Below the pieces are notes generated by a model, which was not told where the DNA came from, ran no database searches, and saw only the letters and a program-made list of their open reading frames with translations. This document shows positions 58,281 to 62,773 of a stretch of DNA of 64,000 bases, in pieces. This DNA is from a virus, in the IMG/VR virus record IMGVR_UViG_3300030107_006644, positions 136,795-200,794 of that record. One strand, written 5' to 3'. Positions within the stretch are counted from its first letter, which is position 1; every line of letters starts with the position of its first letter. The position numbers and the translations under genes are program-made.

Positions 58281-58877
58281 ATGAAAGCAACATTAATTAA
58301 GGCAATGCTGTGTGGAATGTTCCTCACTGCATGCAGTGCGTGTACACCAGAAATAGAAAGCGAGTCACCTTCGAATACAGATAGTGAAGTGGTAGTGGAT
58401 AAACACCCATGGGCTACTTGGGAAGATTGCAGTCAAGTGCCCGGAGCACATCCATGCAATTTTGAACTCATGGACCAGAATGGAGAAATGGTAGAGCTTT
58501 ACGATCAATATGAAAAGGTTATAGTAATTGATTTATCAGCTATGTGGTGTGGAGTTTGCAACAACATAGCAACGATGGGAGACCAATTCGTATCAGATTA
58601 TGGTTCTGAGAATGTGGTTTGGTTAACCGTGCTGATTGATGACAGCACTGGAAATCCACCAGATTTAGCAGATCTGCAGCATTGGGCTGAAACATACAAT
58701 ATATCAGGACCAGTACTGGGCGCAGATAGGACCCTGATTGACCAAACTGCACAAACAGGATATCCAGTAACTTCTTGGCCAACTTTAGTAGTGGTTGATA
58801 AGCAAATGGTTATGCAATACGGTATATATGGATGGAGCGAAAGCGTTGTTCGTGGCTGGGTTGAGAGTTTACTATAA
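58281..58877 (+). CDS. Thioredoxin-like (TlpA/ResA-type) lipoprotein
   Basis: 198 aa, AAGGAAAG upstream. Signal peptide with lipobox LTAC then SACTPEIE. Redox site Cys90-Gly-Val-Cys93 in SAMWCGVCNN; cis-proline in SWPTLVVVD. Family members reduce or oxidise disulfides in the periplasm. Two extra Cys near DCSQVPGAHPC may add a disulfide. The upstream RNA element may control it. Third lipoprotein in the window. Confidence 0.85.
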   Translation: MKATLIKAMLCGMFLTACSACTPEIESESPSNTDSEVVVDKHPWATWEDCSQVPGAHPCNFELMDQNGEMVELYDQYEKVIVIDLSAMWCGVCNNIATMGDQFVSDYGSENVVWLTVLIDDSTGNPPDLADLQHWAETYNISGPVLGADRTLIDQTAQTGYPVTSWPTLVVVDKQMVMQYGIYGWSESVVRGWVESLL

Positions 58878-59134
58878 TGTGGAAAGTATATGCATGGAAC
58901 GGAAGATTTATACAAGGTGACTTGGTAAGTAAACACTCCTCAGAATCTGCTGCTCTTAAAGCAGCAAAAAAATCAATAGGATATAAAAAAAATACCAAAG
59001 AAACAAAAAAGGGTGAAATACTTATTTGGTTAGATAATGAAGATGGTACGCCCATGGGAGTTATCGTGAAAAAAACCAAAGTAGAAGAAATAAGGGGACG
59101 AAAAAGGATTCGACAGGGTAAGAAAAAGGAATAG
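58877..59134 (+). CDS. Small basic unknown protein, overlapping tmRNA
   Basis: 85 aa, ATG at the previous stop codon. VYAWNGRFIQGDLVSKHSSE, ILIWLDNEDGTPMGVIVKK, Lys/Arg-rich tail. The final 40 nt are also the 5' end of the tmRNA gene, so the tail RKRIRQGKKKE may simply be read-through of RNA sequence. Confidence 0.55.
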   Translation: MWKVYAWNGRFIQGDLVSKHSSESAALKAAKKSIGYKKNTKETKKGEILIWLDNEDGTPMGVIVKKTKVEEIRGRKRIRQGKKKE

Positions 59135-59430
59135 TGCAAGTAGGTTAGATACGGCCTTAACAGTTCAAAAACAATAGTTGCAAATAACAACAATCACTTC
59201 GATTCTGTTCGCTTAGCGGCTTAATCGGGAGGTCGCTCAAAACCTTCTATCCAATTTGGGCAAAAACAACAGACAAGTTGTAAAAATCAACAAATTTATC
59301 GCAATAGGATGGTAAGCGATATCTGAACGCCATCTATATTTGTCAGTAGCTGATAGAAACTGACTAAACTTGTGAATGACTACAGTTGGACTTATTGTGG
59401 ACGCGGGTTCGATTCCCGCCGTCTCCACCA
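59094..59430 (+). ncRNA. ssrA: tmRNA (transfer-messenger RNA)
   Basis: 337 nt. The 5' GGGGACG (59094-59100) pairs with 3' CGTCTCC (59420-59426), then A and CCA (59428-59430). GGATTCGAC after the 5' strand and the T arm GCGGG-TTCGATT-CCCGC (59403-59419) are canonical. The tag frame resumes at GCA 59180 and reads ANNNNHFDSVRLAA, stopping at TAA 59222. It rescues ribosomes stalled on broken mRNA and marks the products for degradation; the ending LAA is the ClpXP-type degron. A complete tmRNA is uncommon in phages. Confidence 0.96.
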
Positions 59431-60104: not shown

Positions 60105-60127
60105 TATTAGTAAGAGAGGTGTATAGG

Positions 60128-60628
60128 TTGAAGATCAAGATTGCGTTCTATAAAGGTCCGGGCGATTGGAAAAACAGGATTATCCGGTGGTGGACAAAGA
60201 GTCCATATTCACACGCAGAATTGATCATGGCTGATAACTTTACTTGGATTGGAATTAGTCCCTTATTGACCTCTACCGTGTCTGCAAGAAAGAAAGTCGA
60301 CTTTGATTTAGAAAATTGGGATTTTTCTGATTTACAAATTACCCAAGAACAGAGTAATATTATACAAGAGTTTTATGAAGAAACACAGGGCAGCAAATAT
60401 GATTGGATTGGGATGTTATTATCTCAGTTTTTCCCTTACAACATTAAGAGGAAAGGAAAATGGTATTGTTCTGAGTGGATAGCGTATGCACTTCGTATAT
60501 CTGGAGTAGTCGATTGGAGAACAATCAGGATATATGATAGGTGCGACCTTTCTCCCGGAGTTCTTTATCAAATTGTACAAGAGGCAAAAGAAAATCAAAA
60601 TTCGCTTGACAGCGACCCCCCAAGCTGA
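60128..60628 (+). CDS. Permuted NlpC/P60-like cysteine peptidase
   Basis: 166 aa from TTG 60128, chosen because GAGAGGTGTATAGG precedes it as in groEL. Catalytic His29 in SPYSHAELIM and Cys114 in KWYCSEWIAYAL appear in the reversed order typical of YiiX/C92 permuted papain-like enzymes. Such enzymes cut lipoproteins, peptidoglycan or amide bonds. Its end overlaps the promoter of the next RNA gene. Confidence 0.78.
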   Translation: MKIKIAFYKGPGDWKNRIIRWWTKSPYSHAELIMADNFTWIGISPLLTSTVSARKKVDFDLENWDFSDLQITQEQSNIIQEFYEETQGSKYDWIGMLLSQFFPYNIKRKGKWYCSEWIAYALRISGVVDWRTIRIYDRCDLSPGVLYQIVQEAKENQNSLDSDPPS

Positions 60629-60645: not shown

Positions 60646-60730
60646 GGGGGCGTATCCCAGCCGTCTTATAAGCGGTGCATTAAACTTGGGTAATTGGTGC
60701 ATGCGGGTTCAAGTCCCGTCGCCCCTACCA
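60646..60730 (+). tRNA. Anomalous tRNA-like RNA, no D arm, anticodon TAT (Ile)
   Basis: 85 nt. Acceptor GGGGGCG/CGCCCCT, T arm GCGGG-TTCAAGT-CCCGT and encoded CCA are normal. The anticodon arm GCCGT-CTTATAA-GCGGT (60660-60676) gives TAT with U33 and A37. Only seven nucleotides (TATCCCA) separate acceptor and anticodon stem, so a D arm is missing. Instead a 24-nt extra arm (60677-60700) can form a hairpin, and CCCA (60656) can pair with TGGG (60687). It may be a tRNA-Ile for AUA or a tRNA mimic. Confidence 0.6.
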
Positions 60731-60748: not shown

Positions 60749-60991
60749 ATGGATCCAAATAAGGAAAACAACAAGTCTTGGAAAAAGGCAGGCTACTTTA
60801 GTACATATGAGGAAGCTCAAACTAAGAAAACGCAACTTCACGCCGAACATACGGTTGATAATGAGCTTGTAGTTAAGATACGCCGCAGCGGACCCGGCGG
60901 TACGCGTTTTACGGTCAAGTATTGGCATCCCGACTTTGTAAAGCCTAAAAACAAAAAGAAGAATAAGCGCCCCGATAGCTCAGCTGGATAG
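60749..60991 (+). CDS. Small basic protein, stop inside tRNA-Arg
   Basis: 80 aa, AAGAGGAAAAC before ATG. AGYFSTYEEAQTKKTQLHAE and NELVVKIRRSGPGGTRFTVK resemble a small RNA-binding fold. The last eight residues are encoded by the tRNA-Arg gene. Confidence 0.6.
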   Translation: MDPNKENNKSWKKAGYFSTYEEAQTKKTQLHAEHTVDNELVVKIRRSGPGGTRFTVKYWHPDFVKPKNKKKNKRPDSSAG

Positions 60992-61045
60992 AGCATCGGC
61001 CTTCTAAGCCGAGGGTCGTAGGTTCGAATCCTACTCGGGGTACCA
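60969..61045 (+). tRNA. tRNA-Arg (TCT)
   Basis: 77 nt. Acceptor GCCCCGA/TCGGGGT, D arm GCTCAGCTGGATAGAGC, anticodon loop CTTCTAA (TCT), T loop TTCGAAT, CCA encoded. Reads AGA. Confidence 0.95.
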
Positions 61046-61792: not shown

Positions 61793-62311
61793 TTGGCGCA
61801 TCATTACGGTGATTTTATGAGAAAAAGAAAATATATTATGGTTTCTGGTGGGTTTGACCCTATTCACGTTGGACATGTACGCATGATTCAAGAAGCTGCT
61901 CGCCATGGCGATGGGCTTTATGTTGTCTTGAATAGTGATGATTGGCTTCTTCGCAAGAAAGGGTACATCTTTATGCCATTTGAGGAACGCGCTGAGATTA
62001 TAAATGCAATTAGTGGTGTCACGGCCGTGATTCCGGTAGATGATTCAGATAACACCGTGTGTGAGGCCCTACGCAGAGTAAAGCCAGATTGTTTCGCCAA
62101 CGGCGGTGATAGGACCAATAAAAATACTCCTGAAATGCAAGTTTGCGAAGAATTGGACATTGAGATGATTTGGAATATAGGCGGCGGAAAGATTCAAAGT
62201 AGCAGCGAACTTGTAGCTAATTCCAACATTGTTGAAAGTAGAGAAAACACAAATCGTACTGAAACACAGCAAGTCGACTTATTTGAACATTGGTCGCTAG
62301 ATCGAACATAA
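61793..62311 (+). CDS. Nucleotidyltransferase, RfaE-C/TagD-like
   Basis: 172 aa from TTG 61793 (AAGGAG eight bases upstream; ATG 61817 possible). GGFDPIHVGHVRMIQ contains the HxGH signature; FANGGDR and IQSSSELV match the sugar-phosphate adenylyl/cytidylyltransferase group (heptose-1-P or glycerol-3-P). Likely makes an activated sugar or polyol for surface modification or nucleotide metabolism. Confidence 0.85.
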   Translation: MAHHYGDFMRKRKYIMVSGGFDPIHVGHVRMIQEAARHGDGLYVVLNSDDWLLRKKGYIFMPFEERAEIINAISGVTAVIPVDDSDNTVCEALRRVKPDCFANGGDRTNKNTPEMQVCEELDIEMIWNIGGGKIQSSSELVANSNIVESRENTNRTETQQVDLFEHWSLDRT

Positions 62312-62454: not shown

Positions 62455-62643
62455 ATGCTTTTACTAATATTGCTAGCTTATAATCACGGACAACCAGAGT
62501 TACCACAATGTACTATTGATCGGTGCGAAGCGCAATATTGCGTAGTAGAGACACCGGAAGGAAGTGTTGATGTTTCACGAAAACCTCACTACAGAGAGGG
62601 TATGTTAATTGAGTGTCCTTTTTGGCTAATTGATCCGACTTAA
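62455..62643 (+). CDS. DUF3006-like small protein
   Basis: 62 aa. Short hydrophobic start (LLLILLAYNHG), then IDRCEAQYCVVETPEGSVDV and YREGMLIECPFW, the pattern of DUF3006 beta proteins. Possibly periplasmic. Sits between tRNA-Leu and a structured spacer. Confidence 0.55.
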   Translation: MLLLILLAYNHGQPELPQCTIDRCEAQYCVVETPEGSVDVSRKPHYREGMLIECPFWLIDPT

Positions 62644-62649
62644 ATACGC

Positions 62650-62770
62650 TGCTCCCGTACAGCAGATGAAGTGGCGTTCCTCTAACGATATGCAGGCCAT
62701 CATAGGGAAGTTGACATAGATTGCATTACACGGTCTGTGAAACTATCCACGAAATTGGTGCTGGGGAGCA
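62650..62770 (+). ncRNA. Candidate structured RNA upstream of tRNA-Lys
   Basis: TGCTCCC (62650-62656) is complementary to GGGAGCA (62764-62770). Inside, TTCCT/GGGAA (near 62678 and 62704) and a small CTGCT...AGCAG hairpin at the left. It shares the 10-mer CCTCTAACGA with the element at 58127. No ORF. Function unknown; a processing element for the tRNA transcript is possible. Confidence 0.4.
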
Positions 62771-62773
62771 AGC

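Follow-up and report, generated by a model that had tools for sequence, protein, structure and literature searches.

A complete one-piece tmRNA gene of a marine T4-like phage and the conserved small gene that runs into it

Genes for tmRNA (ssrA) are already known from cultured phages as well as from huge phages (PMC9004378, PMC7162821, PMC11915505). They were counted in 402 of 18,146 cultured phage genomes (PMC9004378), and 79 unique phage sequences are listed in a tmRNA database of 2025 (PMC11915505). The Methylophilales phage Melnitz (PMC9004378) and the huge phages (PMC7162821) resemble the phage analysed here in that a complete ssrA lies in a T4-like or huge phage genome, and in these phages, as for the 79 database entries, the rescue machinery of the host is presumably used. 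The tmRNA of Melnitz is made of two pieces and comes with a glutamine riboswitch, whereas ours is a one-piece RNA whose gene follows, and is overlapped by, a conserved small gene. SmpB has been reported among the huge phages (PMC7162821) but was not found in the present phage record. According to PMC3985003, the 5' end of tmRNA is generated by RNase P. A further system to be compared is arfA of E. coli, whose stop codon is removed by RNase III or by a terminator and which is repressed by trans-translation (PMC10107115). The tmRNA described below belongs to the known kind, and its novelty lies in the closely linked, overlapping partner gene.

The window, that is, the whole stretch of DNA analysed (64,000 nucleotides), comprises bases 136795-200794 of a 205,517-bp (205.5-kb) virus record, which is possibly incomplete. 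The source of the tmRNA is a marine T4-like virus of bacteria. T4-like families in the record include the terminase, portal, major head protein, baseplate wedge and a T4-type head protease, the last encoded between the portal and capsid genes. Judged by terminase, the nearest isolate is Flavobacterium phage immuto (45% identity); many uncultured viral contigs match at mostly 63-79% identity and one short contig at 99%. No cultured relative was found, the isolate genomes matching the tmRNA in the T arm and 3' end only, and the small upstream protein had no match among isolate phages. A nucleotidyltransferase like heptose-phosphate adenylyltransferase (61793-62311), whose gene lies close to the tmRNA in 38 loci, together with sugar genes at the start of the record, suggests a Gram-negative host. 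Assigning the host by the tag was rejected, as the bacterial contigs with phage-type tags among the matches listed look phage-derived. A 4.7-kb contig binned as Flavobacteriales (L323) carries the tag ANNNYHFESVRLAA and an FtsZ/tubulin-like ORF and resembles phage DNA. Three tmRNAs were found in one Halobacteriovorax MAG (L329, L479, L481), one with the tag ANNDFAPAMAA, one with the phage-type tag ANNNDNFEYALAA and a third detected by Rfam alone. The contig with ANNNDNFEYALAA matches an IMG/VR contig; L329 corresponds to an IMG/VR contig of equal length with the tmRNA at the same position and looks phage-derived.

A preliminary description of this DNA had proposed a complete phage-encoded tmRNA with acceptor pairing, T arm, encoded CCA and tag frame. 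This proposal is borne out by ARAGORN and Rfam, which independently return identical bounds, and by selection on the fold and on the tag end (see below). ARAGORN placed the gene exactly at the bounds given in Table 1, with the tag ANNNNHFDSVRLAA and a coding part of gene nucleotides 87-131. The Rfam model RF00023 also scores the locus, aligning over its full length (1-374/374) with 126.7 bits against a gathering threshold of 47 (E 3.7e-49), although the central part of the model is aligned only weakly. It is the single full tmRNA match in the entire record. Each of the named parts was read directly in the sequence. The acceptor stem forms seven pairs, among them the G3-U pair of alanine identity, which is kept at pair 3 in 33/33 aligned relatives; the resume codon stands in the context UAG-UU-GCA and the tag stop is UAA. 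The first nucleotide of the tmRNA (59094) is the expected cut point of RNase P. Absent from the earlier list of parts were four pseudoknot regions, all of which are present as well. Both helices covary in pseudoknots 2 and 4, and one helix each in pseudoknots 1 and 3; in the second helix of pseudoknot 2, all seven pairs covary with 99.1% of cells paired. The description had also passed over the most unusual neighbour of the tmRNA, the upstream gene that overlaps it.

Table 1. Positions of the tmRNA parts, the upstream genes and the two ClpP-like genes, numbered within the window
Feature	Position	Strand	Evidence or remark
Second ClpP-like protein, 211 aa	1117-1752	+	Asn at catalytic Asp position; 20-member subfamily alignment
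AhpC/TSA thioredoxin-like gene	58281-58877	+	PF00578, E 8.1e-10
Small conserved gene, 85 codons	58877-59134	+	Stop TAG 59132-59134 inside tmRNA
One-piece tmRNA (ssrA), 337 nt	59094-59430	+	ARAGORN; RF00023; covariation over 33 relatives
Acceptor stem 5' strand GGGGACG	59094-59100	+	Sequence; third pair G-U
Pseudoknot 1 region, first helix AGGTT/GGCCT	59142-59157	+	Helix 4: 74% paired, double-sided changes in 4/5 pairs
Tag frame, GCA (resume) to UAA: ANNNNHFDSVRLAA	59180-59224	+	ARAGORN
Pseudoknot 2: GGAGGT/ACCTTC crossed by GCTCAAA/TTTGGGC	59228-59261	+	Helices 5 and 6
Pseudoknot 3 region, hairpin ACAAC/GTTGT	59266-59281	+	Helix 7: 89% paired
Pseudoknot 4: GGATGG/CCATCT crossed by TATCGC/GCGATA	59297-59335	+	Helices 8-10: 74-84% paired, covarying
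T arm GCGGG-TTCGATT-CCCGC	59403-59419	+	Helix 12: 100% paired, double-sided changes in 2 pairs
Acceptor stem 3' strand CGTCTCC	59420-59426	+	Helix 1: 97.8% of cells paired
Discriminator A and CCA, encoded	59427-59430	+	Sequence
ClpP-like serine protease, 204 aa	61060-61674	+	PF00574, E 1.6e-24; 15 nt after tRNA-Arg

With bacterial one-piece tmRNA (RF00023) the phage RNA shares the G3-U acceptor stem, the T arm, the CCA end, the resume codon, the LAA tag end and the pseudoknots. It differs in being phage-encoded without smpB, in a tag of the form ANNNNHF...LAA and in its short pseudoknots, and its score stands against about 155 bits that certain bacterial tmRNAs reach when searched in a like manner. 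Selection on the fold was analysed in an alignment of 33 diverged viral tmRNA relatives, for which RNAalifold proposed 57 pairs, 32 of them with compensated changes. Pairing was then counted on a hand-drawn structure in which pseudoknots 2 and 4 were entered as crossed helices. Paired cells amounted to 90.4%, versus 78.3% in shuffled alignments (0/500 reached the observed value), with 273 double-sided changes versus 83.5 expected from the shuffles and a covariation score of 0.387 versus 0.167. When the partners were slid by 1-3 columns, pairing fell to about 35-45%. Chance as the source of the fold is excluded by these shuffle and slide controls.

The end of the tag was also conserved. LAA closes 70 of the 73 unique related viral tags of ANNN type and, since the scan pattern required ANNN..F and bases -5 to -1 while leaving the LAA end free, this end is the sole unbiased observation of the tag scan. 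Reading the frames without ARAGORN gave LAA in 61/64, and one sequence counted as a miss is truncated where its locus ends; an apparent truncated tag in L467 is really the end of the locus. The codons at LAA vary synonymously (TTA, CTA or CTC for Leu, all four codons for each Ala, and TAA or TAG as the stop). LAA is kept despite these varied codons, and selection therefore acts on the peptide. The expectation that LAA would be read by ClpXP agrees with the conservation, at the peptide level, of this putative degron-type end. As judged from the aligned sequences, selection in phages acts on the fold of the RNA as well as on the degradation end of the tag peptide.

That few phages carry ssrA, as the preliminary description had it, is correct for cultured phages, at the frequency cited above, but not for the clade of this phage. 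A tmRNA was present in 6/16 partial records picked by terminase similarity alone and in 29 of the 40 related records examined, many of which had been selected for tmRNA or ClpP. Most of the examined records above 150 kb have a tmRNA, many again having been chosen for it. Uncultured viruses were scanned with one tmRNA 3'-end pattern, the matches of which represent a lower bound. The tmRNA is common in the marine clade of this phage and not rare in uncultured viruses.

No SmpB gene was found in the phage's own record or in any of the 40 related records (0/40; possibly incomplete), the control genomes being positive, and host SmpB is therefore probably used. Similarly, a search for a ClpX/ClpA-type unfoldase found no AAA_2 gene above the cut-off in the record, and such a gene reached the cut-off in 2/29 related records. 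With the unfoldase absent here and rare in relatives, the unfolding of tagged proteins is probably a task of the host. Two ClpP-like proteins are encoded within the window. The 204-aa protein, whose gene sits 1.6 kb downstream of the tmRNA, has the fold of the ClpP peptidase (PF00574; PDB ClpP fold matches, E 1e-13) and an intact Ser-His-Asp triad that is also kept in its relatives, but it has about 25% identity to ClpP and no cognate unfoldase in the record. The 211-aa copy departs from the peptidase in having Asn within the triad, a replacement of the catalytic Asp found in 19/20 members of its phage subfamily; in this we take it to resemble ClpP1 of Listeria. A role of either protein as the head protease is disfavoured, since a T4-type prohead protease is present between the portal and capsid genes and neither ClpP-like protein should be needed for head maturation.

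Across related, partly fragmentary records, tmRNA and ClpP each occur alone in several cases, and the terminase-selected subset showed no pairing of the two. An obligate tmRNA-ClpP module was rejected as unproven, both genes being common in the clade yet found apart; for the same reason we put forward a joint system as a possibility only. The suggestion that the phage might redirect tagged proteins to a protease of its choice finds a hint in the two ClpP-like proteins, one of them triad-intact and near the tmRNA; it finds none in the record's lack of a ClpX-type unfoldase or in the loose pairing of tmRNA and ClpP across related records.

Other elements lie close to the tmRNA. A protein encoded at 60119-60628 is conserved near the tmRNA in 33 loci and carries the PHROGs label enoyl-CoA hydratase-like, while its residues look like those of an amidase with a permuted papain fold; the gene is preceded by a sigma-70-like site. 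A weak tRNA-like element at 60646-60727 scored 31.7 bits with the Rfam tRNA model, barely over the cut-off, and was not called by ARAGORN. A non-coding stretch before tRNA-Lys (62642-62772) folds as a closed stem (z-score -1.84), and no Rfam family was found for it.

The small gene upstream of the tmRNA, the closest of its conserved neighbours, shares one base with the AhpC/TSA-like gene before it (stop and start reading TAATG) and at its other end overlaps the tmRNA by 41 nt (59094-59134). The AhpC/TSA-like gene occupies a comparable upstream position in 21 tmRNA loci, window included. A tblastn search with the small protein gave matches in 59 tmRNA-bearing loci, all upstream and on the same strand and usually at an equal distance to the tmRNA. 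So that the tmRNA itself would not bias the selection, a further search of viral contigs used the small-protein alignment alone. In this protein-only search, 58 of the 60 unique copies were followed directly by a tmRNA, which was called by ARAGORN on the same strand in 54 and recognised by its 5' motif before the contig end in 4; the two family members without an adjoining tmRNA have their own stop codon. The gene neighbourhood of the tmRNA is fixed over dozens of contigs.

The small protein is under purifying selection (median dN/dS 0.25 over 87 pairs), and its AlphaFold2 model is a compact strand-helix-strand domain (pLDDT 83). Searches of Pfam, PHROGs and PDB gave no convincing match, on which ground its assignment to SmpB or a known family was rejected; the one close match is an unnamed viral protein model. 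By the measure of its sequence evolution, the small gene encodes a real protein.

The stop codon of the small gene falls within the tmRNA in 43 of the 54 unique copies with an ARAGORN tmRNA; in 8/54 it lies at most 11 nt before the tmRNA and in 3/54 farther off. Overlap is found in all three reading frames. After clustering at 80% identity, 33/39 clusters overlap and 6/39 do not, the stop in some of the latter standing directly before tmRNA nucleotide 1. An open frame of at least 60 codons crosses the 5' end in 57/68 tmRNAs of this type, versus 14/83 tRNAs of the same loci, 12/89 other viral tmRNAs and 19/229 other viral tRNAs. The Fisher test of 57/68 against 14/83 gives p 5e-17, and such values overstate significance because the sequences share ancestry. 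The best control is provided by related tmRNAs that stand behind an Hc1 histone H1-like gene (PF07432; L380, L406, L421, L438, L441 and others), with gaps of 1-14 nt and overlap in 0/14. Because these equally tight loci do not overlap, the overlap is tied to the small gene and not to the tmRNA or to compactness alone. Chance overlap was tested in this way against tRNAs, other tmRNAs and histone-type neighbours. In the window itself, a small basic ORF (60749-60991) runs into tRNA-Arg (60969-61045) and takes its stop there, so that tRNA maturation too could yield a nonstop mRNA.

We are highly confident that the locus encodes an authentic one-piece phage ssrA that would use host machinery to free stalled ribosomes and to tag proteins for ClpXP. 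The tmRNA would be transcribed together with its neighbour genes; a scan limited to sigma-70-like promoters gave none from the AhpC-like gene to the tmRNA, which is consistent with cotranscription. Host RNase P would cut the 5' end, the G3-U acceptor would allow charging with alanine, and host SmpB and EF-Tu would bind the charged RNA. This would free ribosomes stalled on mRNAs without a stop codon, and the unfinished protein would receive ANNNNHFDSVRLAA, the LAA end of which would target it to host ClpXP, perhaps joined by phage ClpP, for degradation. Ribosome rescue during infection would then be the natural function of the phage tmRNA. Because ssrA is a frequent attachment site, a relic of host ssrA captured at an integration site might come to mind, yet this origin is barely credible for a gene that is entire, is known in dozens of diverged copies with covariation and keeps a fixed neighbourhood in T4-like phages. 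The phage RNA might instead act against the host tmRNA, as its decoy or inhibitor, a role for which the tag-less tmRNA of phage DS6A is the reported precedent (cited in PMC11915505); this is very improbable given the complete tag frame, the LAA end conserved at the peptide level and the conserved pseudoknots. It is also unlikely that the tag is there to direct proteins to a protease with phage ClpP in its core and an unfoldase supplied by the host. An active-site-complete ClpP-like protein is indeed encoded 1.6 kb downstream, ClpP stays downstream on the same strand in the examined loci of relatives having both, and the separate T4-type prohead protease makes ClpP dispensable for head maturation. 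On the other side, the NCBIfam model closest to this ClpP-like protein is one for ClpP-related head maturation, matched below its cut-off, the record is without an unfoldase, tmRNA and ClpP are found without each other, and the distances between them vary up to about 12 kb.

What the overlap means is judged with less confidence. If RNase P cuts at tmRNA nucleotide 1, the stop of the small gene is removed and a nonstop mRNA results, itself a substrate of tmRNA. Compatible with the preferred reading of the tmRNA is therefore a tentative one of the small gene, on the doubtful side in our estimate, as a partner that is nonstop by design. Ribosomes on its mRNA would be rescued by the tmRNA and the protein tagged and destroyed, so that intact small protein would appear only where either the maturation of the tmRNA or trans-translation becomes limiting, as is the case for arfA. 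A dedicated partner protein, belonging to a new family, would thereby let the phage sense how its tmRNA is being matured and what capacity for rescue it has. Such a circuit would be like arfA, the precedent of a nonstop mRNA repressed by trans-translation (PMC10107115), in that RNA cleavage makes the mRNA nonstop. It would be unlike arfA in that the cut would be the RNase P maturation of the tmRNA itself and the partner product is a small alpha/beta protein domain. The position of 58/60 copies directly before a tmRNA, the overlap of most copies and clusters in all three frames, the low values of the tRNA, tmRNA and Hc1 controls and the purifying selection on the protein all argue for it; the clusters without overlap, a tail within the tmRNA that is not conserved in sequence and the overlap of some tRNAs, tRNA-Arg of the window included, argue against it. 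Neutral compact packing, by which the small gene would just take its stop codon from the tmRNA where it happens to end, without regulatory meaning, we give slightly less than an even chance. It accords with the compactness of phage genomes, with a protein domain that ends about at the tmRNA boundary and with abutting and overlapping forms within one family, but it does not explain why the equally tight Hc1 loci never overlap (0/14) and why crossing is rare at the tRNAs of the same loci (14/83).

A clade that commonly carries tmRNA, in which neither a cultured member nor SmpB was found and a partner gene almost always sits at the tmRNA 5' end, provides a concrete handle on why lytic phages carry ssrA. 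If the nonstop reading is true, a partner made nonstop by RNase P would constitute a self-regulating circuit for which the papers found offer no counterpart, one that would follow the logic of arfA yet be built into the tmRNA gene itself.
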